Positions 7,735 to 22,138 of a stretch of DNA of 44,997 nt are shown in pieces (within the stretch, counting starts at the first letter, position 1; every line of letters starts with the position of its first letter). Below the pieces are notes generated by a model, which ran no database searches, was not told where the DNA came from, and saw nothing but the letters and a program-made list of their open reading frames with translations. The position numbers and the translations under genes are program-made. The stretch is from positions 1 to 44,997 of the forward strand of contig JAJKHV010000099.1 in the NCBI GenBank assembly GCA_021154855.1, read 5' to 3'. Source of the DNA: Solirubrobacterales bacterium (lineage in GTDB: Bacteria > Actinomycetota > Thermoleophilia > Solirubrobacterales > 70-9).

Positions 7735-7998
7735 TCAGTCGAGATAGTCGGCACTGAAGACGGCGATGTGCTCGAACTCCCCGTTCAGCATCGGCATCCC
7801 GTCCGGGTGGCGGGCCGCGGCGACGCTTAGCTCTCGCCTGCTGAAAACCCCAGATTGGTATGCCCTGACCCTCTCCTCGAAGGTCATCTGGGAAAGGAGA
7901 CAGGGCACGTCGCGACGCGTTATCGCGGCTTCGGTCGATGTACGGATTTGAGAGTCGCTGTCTGCTCGACCCCTTTGCTTAACCGCTTGCTGGCTCAT
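7735..7998 (-). CDS. Small hypothetical protein (87 aa)
   Basis: Start MSQQAVKQRG with AAGGAGG SD, preceded by leader element A. Confidence 0.6.
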   Translation of the reverse strand: MSQQAVKQRGRADSDSQIRTSTEAAITRRDVPCLLSQMTFEERVRAYQSGVFSRRELSVAAARHPDGMPMLNGEFEHIAVFSADYLD

Positions 7999-8019: not shown

Positions 8020-8107
8020 TCCCGCCTCGTGCGGGAGCCGGTGCGGCCCCGCCCCACGCCGAAGGCGTGGGAAAATCAAGGGGCAGGCCGGCTGCCGCGA
8101 CGGGCGC
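8020..8107 (-). promoter_or_regulatory. Leader inverted-repeat element A
   Basis: RBS-proximal hairpin TCCCGC-CTCGT-GCGGGA (8020-8036); AGCCGG/CCGGCT long-range pairing (8036-8041/8088-8093) with partial extension; apex CCCACGCC-GAA-GGCGTGGG (8053-8071). Confidence 0.7.
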
Positions 8108-10632: not shown

Positions 10633-13600
10633 TCAGCGGACGAGCGTTGGTGTTTCACGCTCAAGCCCTATTCGCTGCTTTTGACGGAGCCCGTGCTGAA
10701 GACGCCGAAGCTGAACGAGCGCTTCGTCGTGCTCTCGCCTGCGGTGCGGATCGCGGGGAGCGGTACCCAACGGCTCGCCTGTCCGAGAAGTTAGACGGCG
10801 ATGCTGGCGAACTTTGTAGATCAAGTCGATGCCCTCATTCCAGAGGTCGGCCATCCTCGGATCGGCCGGACGCGGGCCTAGGGCCTCAACGATCATCGTG
10901 GAAGGCCGGATCCTCTCGGCCGCGATGTGGCGGCGACGCTCATGTAGTAGCCGGTCCTCGACAAGTGTGAGCTCTGCCCGCTCGACACCGGTCAGGCCGG
11001 AGGGCCTACGGGCTTCGACTCGGACTTTTGCGGCGATGCCTTCCCGCTCCGCCTCGAGCGTGTGTATTTGATCCAGGATCAGACGCTCGACGCTTTGGAG
11101 GCGCGCAAGCTCACCTTCACCCTTCGGGCCTTCGGGGAGTTGGTTTTGCTTGTGCGCAAGGTCATTCAGTCGGGCGTGGGCTCCGGCTATTCGCTTGTCC
11201 AGCGAGTCAAGCCGCTCTCGCGCGGGCGAGCGCTGCTTGCCCGCGTCAAGCCGCTGCATCAGCTGCTCGCGCCGTGCCGAAAGCTCGATCTCGCTCAAGC
11301 CCTCGACCCGCTTCCGGGCGGCTATCTCGCTTGCGGCGAACTCACTTGCAACCCTCTCCGAGCCGCGTCGAATGTCGTGCGCGGCATCGGGCACCTCACG
11401 CTTGGCCGGTCCCAGGTCGGGATCAAGCCACGCGCTCGCGGCGACTCCATAAGCGGTGGTCTCTCCCCGAGCGCGGGACACGGCAACGGTGAAGTCCTCG
11501 CTGGCGATCCCAGAATCGAGCAGGGAAAAGGCCGAGTCGAAGGTCTTGGATTGCGTCGCGTAAGTGGTGAGTGCGTAGGCGTGTTGGATTGCGGGCTCGC
11601 CGCTGTCGGTGCGCTTTTGCAAATAGCCGAGGCCGGCGACGACAGCACGCTCATCGCCACCGATTCGGTGCAAGAGAAGGCGCTGCTCGCTGGCGTCGAT
11701 CCCTGCCACCTCCCACCGCTCCCGGTTGGAAACATCGGCTGTGTTCACCCGGGTCATCACTCGATCTCCGACCGCGAACTGCTGGCCGCCCACTTCGACG
11801 CTCGCCTCTCCGAGAGAGCCGTTTTCCGCAAGGAGGCTGCAGGCGGCTTCATTCAAGTCGGCGACGTCGCGGCGGCGGCGGGCGATCATCACCGAGTCCT
11901 CACCGGCAGCAAAGCGCCGGTGCCAGTCGAGGACCATCGCGGCCTTCACCTCATCCAAGGTGTCGCCAATGATGAGGCGGTCTTGTGCGCGAAAGAGGTC
12001 GAGCGCGTCTGAGCCACGACCTTCATGCGCCAGTTCGACAATGCGCCGGTCGACCGGGTTTTGCTGACGGCGGATTTCTGTGAGGACGATCGTCTCCACC
12101 TCGTTCGTCAAGTGCCCGTAAACACCGCCCGGGCCTACAGCGCCGATCTGCCTTGGGTCTCCGATGGCCACGAGCTTGCCTTCGCAGCGCTCGACGTACT
12201 CCACGACTGCGGCGAATTGAGGCGTCGGGGTAACCGATGACTCGTCCATGACGACGACGGTTCCGCGCGGAAGGGGCTCGATGCCTTTGGCTAGCGCCTC
12301 CTCGCAGCGGATGAGGAACGCGGTGATTGAGGTCGAGGGAATCCCGGCCTGGTCCTCCAGCTCGCCGGAAGCGCTGCGGGGAGTAGCGATGCCGAGGCCG
12401 TAGATCCCGCTCTCCGACCAGACCTCACGCGCCGCCTTGAGGGCGGTCGTCTTTCCCGATCCGGGCAGGGCGGCGACGGTGACGATCCGCTCGCCGCCGG
12501 TCGCCAGCCGCCGAACCATCTCCGCCTGCTCGTCGCCCAGGTAGTGATGGCGGGCAAGCACCGCAGCCAGCACCGACTTGTCAGCGACGGCGGCCCCCGC
12601 CGCCTCCCCCTCGCGTGCACTGCGGAGAACCTGCTGCTCCATCCGCCAGAGGCGAGGGGTCGTGAAGTAGCTCGTCGCGAGCGGTCCCTCGCCGTGGTGG
12701 ACCTCGACAACGCGGTCGCCCATCAAGAGCGAGTCGATGGCGGCCTCGAGCTGGCGCGCGTCGCTGCCTTCTCTCATTCGACTGGCGAGAGCGCAAAGGA
12801 GATCGCGACGGCAGAAGTGTGAGTGGGTCGCCTCCAGGTCCCCCAAGGCACCGTCGATCTCCGAGCCGGTCACCGCGCCCGGCTCGCGACCCGTCGTCCT
12901 GCTCACCATCTGCCCGATCGCGCCTTCGCTGAAATCGAACTCGTCGGCGCGAGCTCGCCAGTCGGCGCGCTGGGCATCGGGGTCGACGCCGTAGTCCTTG
13001 GCGTCGCGGGTGCGGTAGGCCGCCACTTCGGCGGCGGCGGCCGAGCTGGTGCCCCGCTCGGCCATCTCGGCGACGATCTCGCCTCGCCGCTGGCTGAAGT
13101 GCTCGATGAGATCGCGGGCGAAGCCGGCTAGATCGGCATAGCCGTTGACGACCTGCTGCCACTCCAAGCCGAGCTCTCGGGTGATGAAGGCGCGAAGGGC
13201 AGCCTGGTAGATGTGACCGGCCGTCTTCGCCTCGATGAGCAGCGGCGTCCGTCCCTTGGGGCTGGCGAGACTGAGCCACCGGCCATCAGAGAGGGCGCGG
13301 GTCATGTTGGCAGTGACCAGATGGCTGTGAAGCGCAATGTCGCCTGCGCGCGAGGAGCGGTGCAAGAAGCTCATCGAGATAAAGCCTTCGCCGGGCTCGA
13401 TTTCGCCGCCGCCGTAACCTCGACGCACAAAACAGGCGTGGCGTTCGAGATAGCCAAGCGCCTCGCCGATCGCGTAGTCGTGGGCTTGCAGGATCGTCGC
13501 CTGAACCTCTTTGGAGCCGATCGCCCAAAGCAGCGAGACCGACTTCGGCGCGCTGAAACGAATGTCGTAGCCGAGAATCGGCTCGACCTTTCGCTTCACG

Positions 13601-13854
13601 CCGGAGGCGTCGACGTAGGTCCGCGGCTTCGGCCTTTTGACCAGGACCTTCCCGGTCTTGGGGTGCTTGCCAGCGAGGATCGCGGTGTATTCGGCTCGGT
13701 CGACCTCGCCTGAAAGACCAAGCTCTTTGGCCAAGTCGCCCATCCATTGCCCAGGTGCCTCGCCGGGCTTCGTGTAGTAGTCGTCGCCTCCTTCTGCGAC
13801 GGCTTCGATCCAGTAGTTGGCGTTGCCTTTGCCGATCTTCGTCACTCCGACCAT
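10633..13854 (-). CDS. MobF-family (TrwC/TraI-like) conjugative relaxase-helicase
   Basis: MVGVTKIGKGNANYWIEAVAEGGDDYYTKPGEAPGQW N-terminus; HRSSRAGDIALHSHLVTAN metal-binding His motif; ALPGSGKTTALKAA Walker A; VVVMDESSV Walker B. Confidence 0.93.
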   Translation of the reverse strand: MVGVTKIGKGNANYWIEAVAEGGDDYYTKPGEAPGQWMGDLAKELGLSGEVDRAEYTAILAGKHPKTGKVLVKRPKPRTYVDASGVKRKVEPILGYDIRFSAPKSVSLLWAIGSKEVQATILQAHDYAIGEALGYLERHACFVRRGYGGGEIEPGEGFISMSFLHRSSRAGDIALHSHLVTANMTRALSDGRWLSLASPKGRTPLLIEAKTAGHIYQAALRAFITRELGLEWQQVVNGYADLAGFARDLIEHFSQRRGEIVAEMAERGTSSAAAAEVAAYRTRDAKDYGVDPDAQRADWRARADEFDFSEGAIGQMVSRTTGREPGAVTGSEIDGALGDLEATHSHFCRRDLLCALASRMREGSDARQLEAAIDSLLMGDRVVEVHHGEGPLATSYFTTPRLWRMEQQVLRSAREGEAAGAAVADKSVLAAVLARHHYLGDEQAEMVRRLATGGERIVTVAALPGSGKTTALKAAREVWSESGIYGLGIATPRSASGELEDQAGIPSTSITAFLIRCEEALAKGIEPLPRGTVVVMDESSVTPTPQFAAVVEYVERCEGKLVAIGDPRQIGAVGPGGVYGHLTNEVETIVLTEIRRQQNPVDRRIVELAHEGRGSDALDLFRAQDRLIIGDTLDEVKAAMVLDWHRRFAAGEDSVMIARRRRDVADLNEAACSLLAENGSLGEASVEVGGQQFAVGDRVMTRVNTADVSNRERWEVAGIDASEQRLLLHRIGGDERAVVAGLGYLQKRTDSGEPAIQHAYALTTYATQSKTFDSAFSLLDSGIASEDFTVAVSRARGETTAYGVAASAWLDPDLGPAKREVPDAAHDIRRGSERVASEFAASEIAARKRVEGLSEIELSARREQLMQRLDAGKQRSPARERLDSLDKRIAGAHARLNDLAHKQNQLPEGPKGEGELARLQSVERLILDQIHTLEAEREGIAAKVRVEARRPSGLTGVERAELTLVEDRLLHERRRHIAAERIRPSTMIVEALGPRPADPRMADLWNEGIDLIYKVRQHRRLTSRTGEPLGTAPRDPHRRREHDEALVQLRRLQHGLRQKQRIGLERETPTLVR

Positions 13855-13856
13855 CA

Positions 13857-13892
13857 CCTCCGTACTCCATTCGGAGGCCCGGTTTGCGTCAC
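13857..13892 (-). repeat. Bipartite upstream repeat, copy 2, in front of the relaxase
   Basis: GTTTGCGTCAC (13882-13892) and CCTCCGTACTCCAT (13857-13870), + strand view, same spacing as copy 1. Confidence 0.85.
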
Positions 13893-13899
13893 CCAGCAC

Positions 13900-14140
13900 T
13901 GGACAGTGCATAGTGTGTCGGGCTGTAGGGCTGTGGCTGTGAGGGCGGTCTAGAGCTGCCTCTGGCAGCTCTCTAGATCGGCTGGCTCTGCATAGCTGAT
14001 GACTCTCGTAGCCTGTCTGAGTCTCGCTCGTCTGGAACTAGATGGGCTCTGTCGTGGTGGCGCTGGCTAGCTATGCAGATGCCTCTGGGCGGTGCTTTGC
14101 TCGCCGCCAGGCGACGCAAAGGGCCGGCGCCGTTTGGCGC
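13900..14140. other. Candidate oriT region
   Basis: Adjacent to the relaxase 5' end; direct repeats GGGCTGT/GGGCTGT/GGCTGT (13920-13940); hairpin TCTAGAGCTGCC-TCT-GGCAGCTctCTAGA (13949-13977); inverted repeat TCTGCATAGCT/AGCTATGCAGA (13987-13997/14069-14079); GACTC/GAGTC (14001-14005/14019-14023); hairpin GCGCC-GTTT-GGCGC (14127-14140). Confidence 0.55.
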
Positions 14141-14646: not shown

Positions 14647-15177
14647 TCAGCCTGACGAATGGAAGTCGCCGCCGCAGGCCGACCAGACGCCGCGACTTGC
14701 GCGGCGGGCGGAATCCTCGGTGCGCTCGAACCGCCCAAGGCCGTCGAAGCGCTGACCCTCGAAGCGGTAGACCTCCGCCCAACCGCGACGTAGCTGAGCG
14801 AGTTCAAGCTGGCGGCCGGCGATGAAAGCGTGGGCGAGAATCCGGCCGTAGCGGTCTTCCGCGTCGGCAACCGAGTCGCGGCGAAGGACGACGCTCGCGC
14901 CTTCAGGCGCGAGGGCCTGCATGGAATCGGAGGCGGCCTCGGCTCCGCCCTCGACCGGCACTCCGGGCCGAACGCTCTCGGGGGTGTCGATGCCGACCAG
15001 CCGGACGTAGGCGAGACGGCCGGAGGGCAACCGGACGCGCAGCGTGTCGCCGTCGACGGCGTAGTCGATGACGGCGCGAGTAGCGCTCCGGCTGCTGCCT
15101 TCCTCAGCGCCGCCCGCCGTCCCGCATCCAACCCAGGCGAGGGCGGAGAGGGAGAGGAGAACGGCAGCGAACTTCAT
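14647..15177 (-). CDS. Thermonuclease (staphylococcal-nuclease-like) lipoprotein
   Basis: MKFAAVLLSLSALAWVGCG lipobox; VDGDTLRVRLPSGRLAYVRLVGIDTPES; DRYGRILAHAFIAGRQL. Confidence 0.88.
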   Translation of the reverse strand: MKFAAVLLSLSALAWVGCGTAGGAEEGSSRSATRAVIDYAVDGDTLRVRLPSGRLAYVRLVGIDTPESVRPGVPVEGGAEAASDSMQALAPEGASVVLRRDSVADAEDRYGRILAHAFIAGRQLELAQLRRGWAEVYRFEGQRFDGLGRFERTEDSARRASRGVWSACGGDFHSSG

Positions 15178-15277: not shown

Positions 15278-15631
15278 TCATGCCGTCGCTGCCGGTCGCG
15301 CACGCAGGATCACGCGCTTGCCCTCGTCCACCAGGATCTCCTGCCGATCAGCCCGATCACGCTCGGGTCCGATCACCCCGACGCCCTCGATCAGGCTCCC
15401 CACGAGCAGCCTGGCGCAACGCTCGGCCTCCGCCCCTTTCACGTAGAGGGAAACCCTGGGCGGCTTGCTCGCCGGTCCAGCCGCCTCCCCGGCCACCAAG
15501 AGACGACAGACCGCGACGCCGTCGCTCAACCTCCCGAACTGCGGTGCCTTGGTGAGCCAACCTCGCGCGAAGGTACGAAGGACCGGCTCCTGCGTGTTCG
15601 CCGCCTGCGCTCCGCTCTGTCCTGCTGGCAT
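15278..15631 (-). CDS. Divergent SSB/OB-fold-like protein lacking a C-terminal acidic tip
   Basis: SD AAAAGGAG; VLRTFARGWLTKAPQFGRLSDGVAVCRLLVAGEA...VSLYVKGAEAERCARLLVGSLIEGVGVIGPE follows the SSB motif order; ends RARPAATA. Confidence 0.6.
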   Translation of the reverse strand: MPAGQSGAQAANTQEPVLRTFARGWLTKAPQFGRLSDGVAVCRLLVAGEAAGPASKPPRVSLYVKGAEAERCARLLVGSLIEGVGVIGPERDRADRQEILVDEGKRVILRARPAATA

Positions 15632-15652: not shown

Positions 15653-15796
15653 GCCCCTCGGGGCTTCTTGCTTACTTGCGCCAGCCGAAAAAGCCCCGGA
15701 CATCCGAACCGCGCACCGAGCGAAGCGAGGGGAAGGGGCGAAGCCCCTTGCGCGGGGCGGTGCCGGGGCTAGGCTGAAAAGCAAGTAAGCAAGAAG
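15653..15796 (-). promoter_or_regulatory. Leader inverted-repeat element G, upstream of the SSB-like gene
   Basis: Perfect 16-bp CTTCTTGCTTACTTGC/GCAAGTAAGCAAGAAG (15664-15679/15781-15796); AGCCCCGG/CCGGGGCT (15692-15699/15763-15770); apex AAGGGGC-GAA-GCCCCTT (15733-15749); RBS-proximal GCCCC-TC-GGGGC. Confidence 0.8.
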
Positions 15797-15945
15797 CTGC
15801 GAGCGCTGAAGCTCATGACGAATGAATGGCCTTGCGAACTGAATGACCATCGGATGCACCGGCTATAAATTCTTCGCGACACTTACCGGGGCGGGTATTT
15901 GCGTCGCCACGCGCGTTGTGCCCGTGGTCATTGCGATAGCAGCAA

Positions 15946-15977
15946 AAGAGGCCCGGTGCTCTCGCACCGGGCCTCTT
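15946..15977 (-). terminator. Rho-independent terminator downstream of ssb
   Basis: 14-bp stem AAGAGGCCCGGTGC/GCACCGGGCCTCTT, loop 4 nt, T-run on the - strand. Confidence 0.85.
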
Positions 15978-15991
15978 CGATCCCGCCGGAG

Positions 15992-16426
15992 CTAGAACGG
16001 GATGTCGTCGTCTCCGGCGCCCGCTCCCGCCATCGCGAACTCCCCGGCCTCGGCTTGTGCCGGCTCGGCAGCCTCCGTCGGCGCACTGTCCTTCGGGCTA
16101 CCGAGGAACTGAACGTCGCTGGCTAGCAGCTCGACCTTCTGACGTTTGCCGCTGCCGTCTTTTGCCTCCCACTCGCGCCAATCCAGACGGCCCTGGACGG
16201 CAACCCCGCTGCCCTTCTCAAGGTGCTCGGAGCAGGCGACGCCTCGTTTGTTCCAGACCTTGACGTCGAAGTAGTTGGGCTTGTCCTCCCACTCGCCGGT
16301 CTCACTGTTTTTCCGGCGCGTGTTCACCGCGACCCGCAGCTCGCACACTGAGGAGCCGCCTTGAAAGCTCGTCAGCTTCGGGTCCTTGGTTAGGTTGCCG
16401 GTGATGGCGAATACGTTGATGTTCAC
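15992..16426 (-). CDS. ssb: Single-stranded DNA-binding protein
   Basis: GTG start, AAAGGAG SD; NINVFAITGNLTKDPKLTSFQGGSSVCELRVAVN; DDDIPF acidic tip. Confidence 0.95.
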   Translation of the reverse strand: MNINVFAITGNLTKDPKLTSFQGGSSVCELRVAVNTRRKNSETGEWEDKPNYFDVKVWNKRGVACSEHLEKGSGVAVQGRLDWREWEAKDGSGKRQKVELLASDVQFLGSPKDSAPTEAAEPAQAEAGEFAMAGAGAGDDDIPF

Positions 16427-16462
16427 TTTGGTTCTCCTTTGAGAGGTGGTTCGATTGACGAG

Positions 16463-16560
16463 CCCAGGTAGGGCGCACGACCGAACTCGCGGAACCGAGC
16501 CGAAGGCGAGGGGAACCCCCTTTTGGGGGTTGAAGCGTGGGCGGCGTGTGCCAGCCTGGG
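16463..16560 (-). promoter_or_regulatory. Leader inverted-repeat element F, upstream of ssb (less canonical)
   Basis: CCCAGGTAGGGCGCAC/GTGTGCCAGCCTGGG imperfect arms (16463-16478/16546-16560); internal AACCCCCTTTTGGGGGTT hairpin (16514-16531); GCC-GAA-GGC core. Confidence 0.55.
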
Positions 16561-16600
16561 GTGAGGAAGTCGGACTGCCTCTCTGGAGATGCCTGTGGAC

Positions 16601-17554
16601 TTACGCTGCCGCCAGGGCCGGGATATCTGCTTCACCGCCACGCTCGTCCTGCGGAGGCTCGACCTCGAGCAGCGCATCCTCGATCCGCCTGGCTAGCCTG
16701 TCGATCAGCGCGGCGTAGCGCCCGACCTCATCGCCCTCACTCCAACCGGTCATGTAGGGAATCGAAGAACCAGAGGTGTCAAAACCCAATGAGGCGCAAA
16801 CGGTGAAGGCGACGCACTCGACCACGACCTCCTCCTGCGCGCGAGTCAGCTTCGGATCGTCTTTCTGGCTATCGATCACCACGAGGGCGTGGGCAAGCTC
16901 GTGGATCCCGGTTGCGATCTGGGCATTGGGCGAGAAGCCCTCCCTTACCTCTTCGACGGCGATCCACTCCTCGCCCCGGTGGCACAACCCCTCGGCGCGA
17001 CCGTCGATCGTCTCGACCCTGAAGGCGTAGCCGATAGAGCCGGCCAGTCGGCTCAGTGGGTCGAGAAGATGAGCAAGACCGTCGCCGGTGATTGGCTGGG
17101 ACGCCGGCGGCGCCAAGTCGGCTGGCCCTCCGGGGAACTCGGGCAACGGGTCGACCTGAGATCGGTCGAAGACCGCGACCAGGCGAAAGAAAGTCCGCGG
17201 CCTGTCGTGAGGGTCGCCGCCTTCTTTTTCCCACTGCTTGACCTTCTTCTTCGAGGGTGGGCACGGCGCCCAAATGCGAATTCCATGCTCTCCCTTTCGA
17301 ACCGAATAACCGAGCTCGAGCCAGCGCCGAAAGCCGGTGACGTAGCTCGCCTCGGGGCATTGCAGGGCGATCAGTACCTGGTTCCAGAAGCTGTAGCGAT
17401 GGAACCTGCGCCTGACCGTGAGCCAGCGCTGCCAGCCCTCGCTTGAGCGCAGCTCCTCGATCGCCTTCGCTGCAAGCTCGCGCTCGGCGGCGCGCTTTTC
17501 GGCGCGCTCCTCCTCGCTCAGCGTGCGTCGGCGAGAACTTCGTCTCTTGGCCAT
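16601..17554 (-). CDS. ArdC-like antirestriction / zincin metalloprotease-domain protein
   Basis: Start MAKRRSSRRR with GGAGG SD; W..WL..R..FHRYSFWNQVLIALQ, GFRRWLELGYSVRKGEHGIRIWAPCP, FRLVAVFDRSQ, IATGIHELAHALV (HExxH-type HELAH). Confidence 0.8.
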   Translation of the reverse strand: MAKRRSSRRRTLSEEERAEKRAAERELAAKAIEELRSSEGWQRWLTVRRRFHRYSFWNQVLIALQCPEASYVTGFRRWLELGYSVRKGEHGIRIWAPCPPSKKKVKQWEKEGGDPHDRPRTFFRLVAVFDRSQVDPLPEFPGGPADLAPPASQPITGDGLAHLLDPLSRLAGSIGYAFRVETIDGRAEGLCHRGEEWIAVEEVREGFSPNAQIATGIHELAHALVVIDSQKDDPKLTRAQEEVVVECVAFTVCASLGFDTSGSSIPYMTGWSEGDEVGRYAALIDRLARRIEDALLEVEPPQDERGGEADIPALAAA

Positions 17555-17573
17555 CTCGACCTCCGGTTGTCGT

Positions 17574-17647
17574 GCCCGCCGCGGTTGGGCGGGCTTTGCC
17601 TCCCGACGCACGGCGAAGCCGTGCCACAATCGGGAGGCAGCCCGCCC
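17574..17647 (-). promoter_or_regulatory. Leader inverted-repeat element B, upstream of the ArdC-like gene
   Basis: GGGCGGGCT/AGCCCGCCC (17587-17595/17639-17647); TGCCTCCCGA/TCGGGAGGCA (17597-17606/17630-17639); apex GCACGGC-GAA-GCCGTGC (17608-17624); RBS-proximal GCCCGCC-N7-GGCGGGC. Confidence 0.85.
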
Positions 17648-17703
17648 GGTTGCTTCTTAGAGCGGTCGCGGCCCAAAACTGTTCGACTCAGCTCGCCGGT
17701 CGT

Positions 17704-18246
17704 TCAGGCGACCTTCTCGACGCAGACGAGAGGGAACGGAACCGTCTTGCGCTGCGGCTTGCCGGTGGCCCGCTCGAGCCGGTCACGGTCTCCGGCGTCC
17801 AGTTCGACCTGAACCTTGTCGCCTTTGACCGCCACAACGCGACCGCGAGCGTTCATGTAGGTCCCCGGCGAGATCGTCGGGCCGACGGCGACGGTGTCGC
17901 CTTTGGCCAGGCCCTCCGTGCGGTTGACTCGCTTGGCTTCAGAGTCATTGAGGGCATTGCCGCGGCCGGTGACCCGCAGGCCGATTTTCGAGCCGTCCTC
18001 GTACTCGCCAAGGGCCTTGTACATCCACGTAGCTGCTTTGTAGAGCTCCCTGCCTGTGATGAACTCGTCGGTTCGGTTGCAAGCGTTGACCGCATCCAGC
18101 ACAGCCTTGTCGTCGGCCTCGGCGACAATCCCATGCGGAACCGCTTTGCCTGCGAGCGTTTCGAGTGTGCTGCCGCCCAGCCGGGGCAGGATCAGGATGG
18201 TCGTGGCCGTTGCCTTTTTGGCGCCTTCCCTCAGTAGGACCTTCAT
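17704..18246 (-). CDS. Hypothetical protein; N-terminal module shared with the adjacent gene, KOW/SH3-like C-terminus
   Basis: AAGGAG SD; MKVLLREGAKKATATTILILPRLGGSTLETLAGKAVPHGIVAEAD; C-terminal GRVVAVKGDKVQVEL. Confidence 0.7.
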   Translation of the reverse strand: MKVLLREGAKKATATTILILPRLGGSTLETLAGKAVPHGIVAEADDKAVLDAVNACNRTDEFITGRELYKAATWMYKALGEYEDGSKIGLRVTGRGNALNDSEAKRVNRTEGLAKGDTVAVGPTISPGTYMNARGRVVAVKGDKVQVELDAGDRDRLERATGKPQRKTVPFPLVCVEKVA

Positions 18247-18267
18247 CGGATCTCCTTGAGCTATGCG

Positions 18268-18353
18268 CTCCCGCCCTTTGCGGGAGCCGGTGAGCCCCCG
18301 CCCTGCACGCGAAGCGTGCGACCCTGGCGGGGCCGGCTCCCGCAAAGGGCGGG
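18268..18353 (-). promoter_or_regulatory. Leader inverted-repeat element C
   Basis: Perfect 21-bp CCCGCCCTTTGCGGGAGCCGG/CCGGCTCCCGCAAAGGGCGGG (18270-18290/18333-18353); CCCCGCC/GGCGGGG (18296-18302/18326-18332); apex GCACGC-GAA-GCGTGC (18305-18319). Confidence 0.9.
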
Positions 18354-18361
18354 GACTCCGG

Positions 18362-18952
18362 TCAGCCAGTCGGATTTGCGAGTGAACGAGTCCTGAGATC
18401 CGCCAACTCGCGGTTGTAGTCGTATAGCTGCGTCTTCAGCGCCCGTACGTCGGTGGCTCGGGCCTCGGGGCGCCGAGGCAACTCCTCGAGGCTCTGCGTG
18501 GTGGCGTCCCGCGCGTCGCCGAGTCGGCCGAGGCAGCAGGCGATCGAGCCGGAGTCGCCGCGCTCGTCGGCTTCCTCGTAGCGGCGACGCTCGTGCGGTG
18601 TCAGGGTGGGTCCGTTGAGTCGCTTCGACTTGGGGAGTTCCAAGACGCAGCCGCTATGGGTGACGTGCTGGACAAGCTCTGAACCGAGCTCATACGCGGC
18701 GAGAATCCCGGCTATCCACTCGACTTCTTCGGTGTTGACGATTCTGACCGCGGCAGCCGGGGCGTGGTGCCGCTCCGCCACCCTGTCGATGGCCTCCGCG
18801 ACCGTCCAGTGGTCCGCCTCCGCGACGATGCCTCCGGGCAGTCCGCCTTCGCCTGCAAGCGTTGTAAGCACGGTCTCCCTCAGCGAGGTCCCAACGGCGA
18901 GAATGGTCTCGGCCGTCGCCCGCCCGGCGCCCTTCTTCAGTAGGACCCTCAT
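18362..18952 (-). CDS. Hypothetical protein, paralogous N-terminal module to 17704-18246
   Basis: MRVLLKKGAGRATAETILAVGTSLRETVLTTLAGEGGLPGGIVAEAD aligns to the neighbour; ATGA overlap with upstream ORF. Confidence 0.7.
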   Translation of the reverse strand: MRVLLKKGAGRATAETILAVGTSLRETVLTTLAGEGGLPGGIVAEADHWTVAEAIDRVAERHHAPAAAVRIVNTEEVEWIAGILAAYELGSELVQHVTHSGCVLELPKSKRLNGPTLTPHERRRYEEADERGDSGSIACCLGRLGDARDATTQSLEELPRRPEARATDVRALKTQLYDYNRELADLRTRSLANPTG

Positions 18953-19155
18953 CGTCGCCCTCGCCTCGCGACTCGCGCATCCGCTTGTAGCTCGTGCAGG
19001 CCGGGCGGCCCACCCGGCAAGACGCCCAGGTCTCGCAGTTGGTCCTCGGCCTTTCGACGGGCCTCGATGGGATCGACGGCCACGACGAACACCCGTGAGG
19101 AGCCGATCTCGACCTCCCACCAAAGCTCGGCGATAAGTTCGGGTGCGCGTTTCAT
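18949..19155 (-). CDS. Small hypothetical protein (68 aa)
   Basis: MKRAPELIAELWWEVEIGSSRVFVVAVDPIEARRKAEDQL; overlaps both neighbours by 4 nt (operon-like). Confidence 0.6.
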   Translation of the reverse strand: MKRAPELIAELWWEVEIGSSRVFVVAVDPIEARRKAEDQLRDLGVLPGGPPGLHELQADARVARRGRR

Positions 19156-19613
19156 GGGGCGCCCTCGACCCCAAGCGAACGCATCACGCGCCGGAGGGAG
19201 AACGGGCTTAGAACCGACAGCTCCCGACAGCAGGAGGTGTACGCCTCGCGACAGGTCGCATCCTCACCCCGGCGGGGATGAAGTTCGCGAATTTGATCCT
19301 CGAGGAGCTTGACTTCTCGGTCATAACCGGAGGTCAGCATGGTCGCGTGAGCCCCATAACCACCTATCTCCTCAGGCCGAATGGCAGCGGCGTCTCCACT
19401 CCTCACCGCGAGGTCTTCACTCACCTGACGGTCTTCTCGCCGGCGGTCAGCCGCGCTCGTGGGCGAGACCGCCAAGAGACGCTTGATTTCCGCCGATGCC
19501 TGACCGAACGTCTTCGGCCAGGCAAACGACTTGCCTGTTTTGATTGCCAGGTCCTTGAGGTAGTCGAGCTGCCCTGGTGTCGGCTTTCTGATGTGATGCT
19601 GTGAGTTGGTCAT
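19152..19613 (-). CDS. Small plasmid-type protein with 'TPxQLxYLxxLAxxTGxSF' N-terminal motif (DUF3072-like)
   Basis: KPTPGQLDYLKDLAIKTGKSFAWPKTFGQASAEIKRLL. Confidence 0.6.
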   Translation of the reverse strand: MTNSQHHIRKPTPGQLDYLKDLAIKTGKSFAWPKTFGQASAEIKRLLAVSPTSAADRRREDRQVSEDLAVRSGDAAAIRPEEIGGYGAHATMLTSGYDREVKLLEDQIRELHPRRGEDATCREAYTSCCRELSVLSPFSLRRVMRSLGVEGAP

Positions 19614-19682
19614 GGCCCAGCCAAAGCAGACCGGAGGAGGCTGGCGAAGCCGGTCGGGGGAGGTCTGCTAGGCGTGTGGGCC
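19614..19682 (-). promoter_or_regulatory. Leader inverted-repeat element I
   Basis: GGCCCA/TGGGCC (19614-19619/19677-19682); AGCAGACC/GGTCTGCT (19625-19632/19662-19669); apex GGCTGGC-GAA-GCCGGTC (19639-19655, two wobbles). Confidence 0.7.
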
Positions 19683-19766
19683 GGGACCAACTCACAGCCC
19701 AGAGCAGTGCGTGAAAACCACACCGGGGGAAAGGCCCCGCTAAGAGCCTTCCCCCGGTAGAGCGCT

Positions 19767-21257
19767 TTACTTCTTGCTGATACGCCGACGGCGCGGCCGT
19801 GCCGCCTTGATGTCTGGGGCAAGAAGCTTTTCGGCCTCTCGATTACCCAAGAACCAGTGGATCCGCTTGGACTGCGGCAGCTGCTCCTGGTCAACCACAA
19901 CCGCCGCGACGATTGCCTCCGCCATCACCTCGTTTACCTGGGCTTCAGTGGAGGCCTCGTTGACCCGGCGGCGCAGCTCCTCCCTGCACTGCTCGGCATC
20001 GGACCAGATGACTTTCTTGCGCTCCTTGCCCGACTTCAACTCTTTGACTTCGATGTCTCGGAGCGTCGGCAGGGTGAGCCGCAGGCCGGACCCGGCGAGC
20101 TGGGGATTGTCGTCAATGAAAAGCAGCGCGATCGCCTTGGCTCGAGCGAGACCGTGCTGCTTACGGCGCGCGCCGGTGCGGCCCGTCAGCAGTTTGCCGG
20201 CCACTTCTTCATTGCCGATCTCGGCGATTTCTTTCCGCGCCTTCGCTTCCTCGCGCTTGGCCGCGCGCTCGTCTTTCTCGGACTCACCGAGCTCTTTGCG
20301 ATGCCCTTTCCAGGCTTCCTCTTCCTCGACCTTCTTCTTGGCTGCCTTCTCGAGCTGCCCAAGACCTCGATCGAAGAGGTCGGCTGCGACGGTAACGTCG
20401 GTGATGAACGCCATGGTCGAAGCCATGCCGCGGCGCTCGGTGCGGTGCTCGACCAAGCAACCCAGCGCCCGCGCGGCGTCGATCTCGGCGTCGCCGAAGC
20501 TCAAGCCCGGATCGTCGGACTTATAGGAGCTGATCGCGTGGAGTCGATCGGCCAGTTCGCGGCGCTTTTTGCCCTTCGCGATGACGCTGACCGGAACCCG
20601 CCGGGCAGAGATCATCGTCGGCTTGTTGTTGAAGTGGGCCTCGGCCGTAGCGGCGAAGATGTCGCCGAAGCGGTCGATGAAGTAGCGGCCCTTGTAGCCC
20701 TGGCGCTTGGCCAGCTCGCAGATGCATTCCGCGACGCGAGGTGAGACGACGGCGATGTCGCGCAGCAGGCGCTCGCCTTCGATTGGCACAAATCCCTCGG
20801 CAATGTAGCGCTGGACGCCCTTGGGGAGATCCAGTAGGCGCAGCCGTTCACTGACCCACGGGACGGACTTGCCGACCTTCCCGGCGATCGCCTTGTTGGT
20901 TTCGAGGTTGAGCTCTCCCGCCAGTGCCCGCAGGCCAAGCGCGGCGTCAATCGGGTCGAGTTCCTCGCGGTGGATGTTCTCGACCAGGGAGCTGAGGTGT
21001 GCGTTGCCCTCACTGACGGTGATCGGAACCTCTTTCAGCCCCCCTCGCTGGGCCGCGGCGAAGCGACGATGTCCCGCAACCAGCGTGAAGCGGCCGTTTT
21101 TGCCGGGCCGCACTGAAAGAGGCTGAACAACGCCGGCAGTACCAAGGCTGGCCGCGAGCCCCTCAAGCTCTTTGTCGTCCATGTGGGTGCGAGCGTTGAA
21201 GCCCTCCTCGACGTCGATCTTGGAAATCTCGACGCATGGTGTCTTTAGGTCGCTCAT
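19767..21257 (-). CDS. ParB/Spo0J-like protein with a long charged C-terminal extension
   Basis: ATG with AAAGGAG SD 8 nt upstream; LAASLGTAGVVQPLSVRP, LVAGHRRFAAAQRGG, LVENIHREELDPIDAALGLRAL, HTH KSVPWVSERLRLLDLP. Confidence 0.88.
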   Translation of the reverse strand: MSDLKTPCVEISKIDVEEGFNARTHMDDKELEGLAASLGTAGVVQPLSVRPGKNGRFTLVAGHRRFAAAQRGGLKEVPITVSEGNAHLSSLVENIHREELDPIDAALGLRALAGELNLETNKAIAGKVGKSVPWVSERLRLLDLPKGVQRYIAEGFVPIEGERLLRDIAVVSPRVAECICELAKRQGYKGRYFIDRFGDIFAATAEAHFNNKPTMISARRVPVSVIAKGKKRRELADRLHAISSYKSDDPGLSFGDAEIDAARALGCLVEHRTERRGMASTMAFITDVTVAADLFDRGLGQLEKAAKKKVEEEEAWKGHRKELGESEKDERAAKREEAKARKEIAEIGNEEVAGKLLTGRTGARRKQHGLARAKAIALLFIDDNPQLAGSGLRLTLPTLRDIEVKELKSGKERKKVIWSDAEQCREELRRRVNEASTEAQVNEVMAEAIVAAVVVDQEQLPQSKRIHWFLGNREAEKLLAPDIKAARPRRRRISKK

Positions 21258-21282
21258 CTTGAGCACTCCTTTGTCCTTCGCC

Positions 21283-21361
21283 CCCGCCCGTTGCGGGAGC
21301 CGGTGCCCCGGAGCCGCACGCGGAGCGTGCGATCATCGGAGGGGTGCTGGCTCCCGCAACG
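21283..21361 (-). promoter_or_regulatory. Leader inverted-repeat element D, upstream of the ParB-like gene
   Basis: Long arms CGTTGCGGGAGCCGGTGCCCC/GGGGTGCTGGCTCCCGCAACG (18 WC + 3 wobble; 21289-21309/21341-21361); apex CGCACGC-GGA-GCGTGCG (21315-21331). Confidence 0.9.
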
Positions 21362-21437
21362 CGGCCAGGGGTGCCGCGTCTATCCGTCGCCGTCGCGGAC
21401 GGTGCGACCACACAGGCGTAGCTCGCCTTCGACGAAC

Positions 21438-22037
21438 TCACAGAACGCCACGCAGTCCCACTTGCCGTCGGCGTTCAGGTATTCGGCGATCCGGTCCAGC
21501 CGACGCTCGGCTTGGCCGAAGCGGGGCCGCAAGCTCGTTGGCCCTGCTCAAGGTCTCCGCCATGATCCGGAGGGTGTAGGCGATCGGATCCTCTCCTCGA
21601 TCCTGCTCGAGGTTCACAGCCGAGCCGATGAGTACGACTCCCCCACCGATTTCGACGGCGGGCAGCGGCTGCGGATTCGCGATCGACATCGGGTAGACCG
21701 AGATGTAGGCCGATTCGAACTCGCAGGTAACGATCTCGGCGCCGAGGGCGGACTCAAAGAGGCCATGCAACTCGTCGGCGTCGCTGAACGGCGTTATCGG
21801 TCTAATTGCGCCTTCGGGATCATTCAGCACCACCGCAGCTGCATCCCGGTCAAGGCCAAAGAGGGGATGTGGAAGTACGCCCTTCCCGAGGTCCGATTCG
21901 GCGTCCGCGACGGTCACAAGCGCCGAGTCGCGGTTGAAGCTAGCGCTGCAGTTTCCACATCGCCGCGCGCCTGGGGACTTGCGTGGGTCTGGAACAACTT
22001 CCGGGCTGCAACAGTCAGGGCATCTCAGCTCCATCAT
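21438..22037 (-). CDS. Zinc-ribbon-containing hypothetical protein
   Basis: MMELRCPDCCSPEVVPDPRKSPGARRCGNCSASF (CxxC...CxxC); AAAGGAG SD. Confidence 0.65.
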   Translation of the reverse strand: MMELRCPDCCSPEVVPDPRKSPGARRCGNCSASFNRDSALVTVADAESDLGKGVLPHPLFGLDRDAAAVVLNDPEGAIRPITPFSDADELHGLFESALGAEIVTCEFESAYISVYPMSIANPQPLPAVEIGGGVVLIGSAVNLEQDRGEDPIAYTLRIMAETLSRANELAAPLRPSRASAGPDRRIPERRRQVGLRGVL

Positions 22038-22056
22038 CAGTCTCCTTTTGCTGTGC

Positions 22057-22138
22057 CCTCGCCGAGCGCGAGAGCCGATGCCCCGAACCCGCACGCGGAG
22101 CGTGCGATCATCAAGGGGCATCGGTTCTGAAAGCGAGG
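22057..22138 (-). promoter_or_regulatory. Leader inverted-repeat element E
   Basis: AGAGCCGATGCCCC/GGGGCATCGGTTCT (22071-22084/22115-22128, one wobble); CCTCGC/GCGAGG (22057-22062/22133-22138); apex GCACGC-GGA-GCGTGC (22091-22105); shares GCACGCGGAGCGTGCGATCATC with element D. Confidence 0.88.

Follow-up and report, generated by a model that had tools for sequence, protein, structure and literature searches.

The window analysed here, meaning the whole stretch of 44,997 nucleotides, is contig JAJKHV010000099.1 (C99) in its entirety, taken from an incomplete 2.2-Mb draft genome of a Solirubrobacterales bacterium that is probably a metagenome-assembled genome. It carries genes for a MobF (TrwC) relaxase, a coupling protein and a row of further - strand genes including ssb, an ArdC-like antirestriction gene and a ParB-like gene, and it contains eight hairpins, each directly upstream of a single - strand gene with a start codon and a Shine-Dalgarno (SD) site (Table 1). 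An earlier note, made from the sequence alone, had described these hairpins as leader elements of a conjugative leading region, and we found all eight in the places and in the orientation reported there. Because the MobF relaxase gene marks the transfer (tra) side, the segment from 15 to 22 kb represents the leading side, in agreement with the placement that had been proposed for the elements it contains. The rule of one element per gene holds for eight genes but not for the second gene of the paralog module, which lacks an element of its own. Neither Pfam nor NCBIfam backs the names 'SSB-like' and Zn-ribbon that had been given to two of the products, and the two paralogs yielded no match in either database; located in the leading region, these paralogs are candidate anti-defence proteins.

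Judged by sequence, elements A through E are one family, here called class I; F and G have a second architecture, class II, to which I is related. The earlier grouping of all eight as copies of one family is justified for A through E and not for the other three. On the + strand, the apical loops of all eight read GAA or GGA, each with C-G closure, as had been described, and long arms were verified for C, D, G and I. Leaders orthologous to element I (L047, L095, L096, L097 and L098) have GNA loops (GAA, GCA, GTA) and TTGAC in the stem, and no -10 could be assigned in element I or these orthologues. A small CCCGCC..GCGGG hairpin, located in the 5' arm beside the SD site, is well conserved in class I (left arms at 18273-18353 and 21282-21361); this 5'-arm hairpin would be within the mRNA leader and may have a role of its own.

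Table 1. Hairpin elements, genes and oriT-like site of the window. CM, covariance model score.
Feature	Position	Strand	Details
Element A, class I	8020-8107	+	loop GAA 8061-8063; extended -10 TGGGAAAAT 8068-8076 on + (template); CM 37.3 bits
Element B, class I	17574-17650	+	loop GAA 17615-17617; extended -10 TGCCACAAT 17622-17630; CM 52.2 bits
Element C, class I	18269-18353	+	loop GAA 18311-18313; arms 21 bp perfect, 18270-18290/18333-18353; extended -10 TGCGACCCT 18317-18325; CM 51.9 bits
Element D, class I	21282-21373	+	loop GGA 21322-21324; arms 21 bp with three G-T pairs on +, 21289-21309/21341-21361; extended -10 TGCGATCAT 21328-21336; CM 64.9 bits
Element E, class I	22057-22138	+	loop GGA 22097-22099; extended -10 TGCGATCAT 22103-22111; CM 57.9 bits
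Element F, class II	16433-16589	+	loop GAA; -35 TTGAAG 16530-16535; 16-nt spacer; TG at -15/-14; -10 CAGCCT 16552-16557
Element G, class II	15657-15803	+	two GAA mini-hairpins; arms 15657-15679/15781-15803; -35 TTGCGC 15748-15753; 16-nt spacer; -10 TAGGCT 15770-15775
Element I, class II-like	19598-19698	+	loop GAA 19646-19648; arms 19598-19619/19677-19698
VirD4/TraG-type coupling protein	2.9-4.7 kb		
87-aa gene	7735-7998	-	preceded by element A
MobF (TrwC) relaxase/helicase	10633-13911	-	NF041492 above cut-off
oriT-like site	13896-13922	+	inverted repeat GCACTGgaCAGTGC then ATAGTGTGTC; just upstream of relaxase start
'SSB-like' gene	15278-15631	-	preceded by element G
ssb	15992-16426	-	preceded by element F
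ArdC-like antirestriction protein	16601-17554	-	ArdcN match; preceded by element B
Paralog module gene 1	17704-18246	-	preceded by element C; product MKVLLREGAKKATATTIL...
Paralog module gene 2	18362-18952	-	without own element; product MRVLLKKGAGRATAETIL...
DUF3072-like gene	19152-19613	-	preceded by element I
ParB-like protein	19767-21257	-	preceded by element D
Zn-ribbon-like protein	21438-22037	-	preceded by element E

The same hairpins precede homologous genes in a second element of the same genome (contig C82) and in elements of other genomes of the class. A degenerate core pattern gave 46 matches in 399 class genomes, including 10 in the genome of the window (G000) and 9 in genome G246, and its reversed form, used as a control, gave none in either; some single matches elsewhere are probably due to chance. 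With a covariance model built from 18 elements, relatives were recovered in 21 of the 399 genomes, with 69 matches in the retrieved loci (best E = 4e-10 over 0.87 Mb); the matches in L099 and L100 (23.6 bits, no downstream start codon) are doubtful. An SD site and a start codon accompany 58 of the 69 matches, and in 56 of these 58 the start lies 26-43 nt beyond the element (median 33 nt). The genes behind the elements (n = 55) encode ParB (15), ArdC (11) and DUF932 (6) proteins, and others encode an SNF2-type helicase, a DprA-like protein and regulators. When the model was applied to a phylum-wide sample with strict filters, the only two genomes recovered belong to the same family as the window, and none came from outside the class sample. 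Pattern matches in IMG/VR were set aside as probable chance hits that the covariance model scores only at the core, a loose triloop-plus-outer-stem descriptor was dropped for its excess of GC-rich chance matches, and a ParB scan of genome contigs gave one irrelevant locus. Sigma-70-like proteins are encoded in the leading regions of L094 (9127-9684, directly behind a class I hairpin) and L137 (11758-12336), and a dedicated sigma for hairpin promoters is conceivable.

The alignment of the 69 matches revealed that the structure is under selection, as had been claimed. Double changes occur at 9 of 12 pairs, and they fill 43 cells compared with 9.8 +/- 2.8 in shuffled alignments, a number reached in none of 500 shuffles. 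The covariation score of 0.204 likewise exceeded that of every shuffle (0.077; 0/500), and registers slid along the alignment scored no higher than 0.071. The apical stems do stay paired, but the free variation that had been ascribed to them does not apply to class I, where the sequence of the GCACG/CGTGC stem is itself strongly conserved and needs an explanation of its own, for which the TG of an extended -10 (see below) is the candidate. These conserved half-sites lie 4 to 11 nt apart, and the distance changes by symmetric growth of the apical stem, which argues for a hairpin rather than for the operator of a dimeric protein. Of 67 loops, 36 are GNA and about 15 are GNNA with C-G closure, and GNA and GNNA loops closed by C-G follow the rule for extraordinarily stable DNA mini-hairpins (PMC4686876). 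Three other kinds of repeat were set aside: MITE/REP-type repeats, given the fixed position relative to SD and ATG and the differing arms; intrinsic terminators, given the lack of T tracts and the wrong side of the gene; and integron attC-like sites, given the absence of a recombinase context and the conserved promoter motif.

In class I, the 3' arm of the apical hairpin has the template-strand sequence T-15 G-14 N-13 S-12 A-11 N N N T-7 (5' to 3'), an extended -10 element. This feature, absent from the earlier note, is the mainstay of the promoter argument. In the set of about 66 elements used for the motif, fold and strand counts, A-11 and T-7 are each present in 66 of 66, G-14 in 65 and T-15 in 59. 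A partition function with DNA parameters gave unpaired probabilities of at most 0.10 for the stem from -18 to -13, 0.85-0.89 for positions -11 to -8, 0.59 for -7, and mostly 0.1-0.25 for the outer stem from -5 onward. The open region from -11 to -7 is the segment that sigma captures as single-stranded non-template DNA at sigma-70 promoters. In duplex DNA the class I extended -10 points away from the gene, and only in the folded template strand, with the 3' arm serving as non-template strand, does it point towards it. An ordinary double-stranded promoter or operator, with ANNNT as a sense-strand -10 and the GCACG/CGTGC dyad as the binding site of a regulator, gains some room from the self-complementarity of ANNNT, because conservation of A and T alone cannot choose the strand. 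However, the mirrored TG is found on the sense strand in 0 of 66 elements, the sense strand shows no -35 enrichment, no consensus sigma-70 promoter was found in duplex DNA between 15.2 and 22.4 kb, the half-site distance varies in the manner described above, and the long outer stems would be left unexplained. We regard this reading as highly unlikely.

The wobble pairs favour folding of the template strand. Counted by helix, this strand has 217 G-T versus 93 A-C wobbles, a higher G-T share than the 57% of neighbouring windows (P = 8e-6) or the 56% of shuffled arms, and the excess persists in 45 non-redundant elements (135 versus 60, P = 8e-4). At pair 37-62, T-15 is kept in five sequences despite a change of its partner from A to G, which leaves a G-T wobble, and the opposite A-C combination never occurs. 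These helix-level counts with their controls were used in place of plain fold energy, which was dropped as a strand test. A structured mRNA leader, in which the - strand transcript of each leading gene folds to control how well it is translated or how stable it is, would suit elements whose distance from the start codon is 26-43 nt, and such a transcript would hold at least the 5'-arm hairpin, with the perfectly paired parts folding equally well as RNA. In contrast, the template-strand G-T wobbles would become C.A mismatches in mRNA, as with the three + strand G-T pairs of element D; the loops obey the DNA rule and would be UNC triloops in RNA; and the promoter-type TGnSANNNT is conserved on the template strand. 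Moreover, no Rfam family was matched above its gathering threshold, the matches below threshold being due to chance. Thus the shared RNA leader that had been held out as the alternative is disfavoured, and we consider it quite improbable.

Class II was assessed with regions selected solely for their position upstream of an ssb homologue, so that the covariance model was not involved. The detector required TTGNNN, then a 15- to 19-nt spacer within a 3' arm, then NANNNT whose A-11 is unpaired. Of the 21 regions, 13 fit on the template strand and 0 on the sense strand, compared with 3 fits among 336 random windows. The template-strand fold of class II thus presents both a -35 and a -10. In element F, A-11 is unpaired (0.99), and the motif recurs in a homologue from L083; in element G, A-11 of the -10 TAGGCT is likewise unpaired. 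Five ssb regions (L041, L042 and L044-L046), which come from a different family within the class, fall mostly outside the detector and share a different conserved leader, CGCATCCGAAGG..CCTTCGGTTGCCACGGCCCGGGGCGTT, and may represent another design.

The orientation of the relaxase gene and an oriT-like site agree with a transferred strand (T-strand) that serves as template for the element-led genes. In the window this site is a + strand inverted repeat with TAGTGTGTC after it. Counterparts of varying clarity, each an inverted repeat adjoining a TGTGTG motif, lie upstream of TrwC in C28, G142, G118 and G292. The layout resembles that of the R388 oriT, a likeness from which the strand of nic was deduced. 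If it holds, the + strand would be both the transferred strand and the template of the element-led genes. In G118, G121, G142 and G324, as in the G000 contigs C99 and C28, the relaxase gene is located downstream of the element-led genes and shares their strand; in G288 it shares their strand from the other side, as it does with element A. On linked contigs, the relaxase strand is common to all element-led genes. TrwC was seen in 16 of the 21 element-bearing genomes versus 74 of 399 overall. The side on which the relaxase gene lies and the genes that follow the elements (ssb, ArdC, ParB and DUF932) place them in a leading region, upstream of establishment genes. A window protein at 171-1661, adjoining the coupling protein of this conjugative element, has a Pfam match to EccE (type VII secretion).

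Most probably, the elements are single-stranded DNA (ssDNA) promoters, as the earlier note had suggested, an idea that withstood each sequence-level test applied to it; the fold-back extended -10, the DNA-type caps, the + strand wobbles and the -35/-10 of the ssb copies all point to this reading. From the pairing, covariation, motif conservation and orientation observed, we infer a scheme for polymerase binding, transcription and shut-off. During conjugation the + strand would enter the recipient with the leading region first, and each element would fold, its GNA- or GNNA-capped apical mini-hairpin holding the TG of the extended -10 as duplex while A-11 to T-7 remain unpaired as a pre-opened -10 and the outer stem provides downstream duplex DNA. 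The 3' arm would act as non-template and the 5' arm as template, continuing single-stranded into the SD site and ATG. Host RNA polymerase would initiate in the outer stem and yield a monocistronic mRNA, whose leader we estimate at about 40 nt; the class II copies before ssb also have a -35 box in the stem. Anti-defence proteins could thereby be made at once upon arrival in a new cell. Synthesis of the complementary strand would abolish the hairpin, and because the duplex motif points away from the gene, expression would be transient. Single-strand initiation sites (ssi/sso), whose hairpins chiefly prime second-strand synthesis through RNA polymerase or primase, would use the same fold and strand, and the title of Masai and Arai 1997 (cited in PMC11541004) describes Frpo as both promoter and primer source. 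Priming and promoter functions are compatible, but one copy per gene at a fixed distance from SD and ATG, with several copies within 7 kb, fits mRNA production better, and priming as the chief role seems very improbable.

Several observations weigh against the ssDNA promoter interpretation. Some loops are neither GNA nor GNNA (AAC, CTTG, CGTG, CTCG, CTT). In class I, position -12 is G, C or A and never the preferred T, and there is no -35. The template strand is the stabler fold in 41 of 66 elements, but control windows share this + strand bias, which makes fold energy uninformative. The covariance model was trained on motif-bearing sequences and the elements within a genome are related; hence the counts are not independent. 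The TTG/ANNNT detector misses the known Frpo2 of plasmid F, our positive control, whose template strand does fold with an unpaired stretch on its right arm; failure of this detector to find a motif therefore carries no information. About one-quarter of the element genomes have no TrwC that we could see, and in several others TrwC is not nearby. Element A (8.0 kb) lies outside the leading segment, across the relaxase gene, and for it the earlier leading-region placement fails. Finally, the nic strand is itself a deduction.

We tentatively extend the proposal to a mechanistically distinct class I promoter that works on ssDNA only, with a GNA cap, a TG duplex and a permanently open -11 to -7 region, copied before each leading gene; unrelated elements of the same design would exist across Actinobacteria (e.g., Cellulomonas p110066), in some of which a leading-region sigma-like protein may read them. 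With TG held as duplex and -11 to -7 open, neither a -35 nor melting would be needed. Plasmid p110066 of the cultured strain Cellulomonas sp. C5510 (L176) has four near-identical hairpins (12579-12602, 14681-14704, 15915-15938 and 17223-17246; 0 expected), each 70-90 nt ahead of a gene: ParB, a hypothetical gene, ArdC and a fourth gene. All of these lie upstream of the relaxase gene and share its strand. Their sequence is unrelated to the window family, and the template strand is 13-20 kcal/mol stabler than the sense strand, which is not so for most other genes there; these hairpins suggest that the ssDNA-hairpin strategy is general. Long, strongly folding ParB/ArdC leaders with a stabler template strand also occur on Clavibacter pCS1 (L169, upstream of 1293 and 3878, alike each other) and Gordonia pGCWB2 (L170, upstream of 787, 3881 and 5241).

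So far, the established ssDNA promoters are confined to a few plasmids of enterobacteria, and the survey in the literature relied on similarity to Frpo or on the E. coli consensus (PMC11541004). The literature searched, whose scope did not extend to subscription papers and preprints, held no report of ssDNA promoters in Actinobacteria. A sequence-unrelated actinobacterial family with its own core motif and covariance model would make early expression from the incoming strand a wider strategy. The minimal architecture, an open -10 with no -35, bears on how RNA polymerase initiates on folded ssDNA, and the core motif could be used for finding anti-defence genes.

Our verdict is that the elements would be an actinobacterial counterpart of the Frpo-type ssDNA promoters, unrelated to Frpo in sequence and present once per gene. 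Frpo1 and Frpo2 of plasmid F and ssi of ColIb-P9 are leading-region elements that precede ssb, ParB-like and establishment genes; their template is the transferred strand, and a stem-loop rebuilds the -10 (and -35) (PMC9849209, PMC11541004); the geometry proposed here is the same. In F, too, the leading region includes ssb and genes for ParB-like and DUF932 proteins, which face oriT in the same way. A blastn comparison of the 66 elements with that region gave only scattered chance matches of 15-23 nt, none upstream of ssb. The elements are about 90 nt long compared with about 300 for Frpo, they precede single genes rather than operons, and, unlike Frpo, they are actinobacterial, with GNA/GNNA caps and, in class I, an extended -10 without a -35. 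The EGeRS1 elements of pLS20-family Bacillus plasmids are also repeated structured sequences directly upstream of single establishment genes, including ardC, but they span 400-600 bp; because their transferred strand is the non-template and no promoter was found in the fold, the authors rejected an ssDNA-promoter role (PMC8708921). For the window elements, in contrast, the transferred strand is the presumed template. Cis-regulatory RNAs in Rfam similarly are conserved, covarying leaders upstream of starts, whereas the strand signals described here favour folding of the + strand as DNA. The d(C-GNA-G) and d(C-GNNA-G) mini-hairpins, known from oligonucleotide chemistry, appear here as a recurring natural cap.

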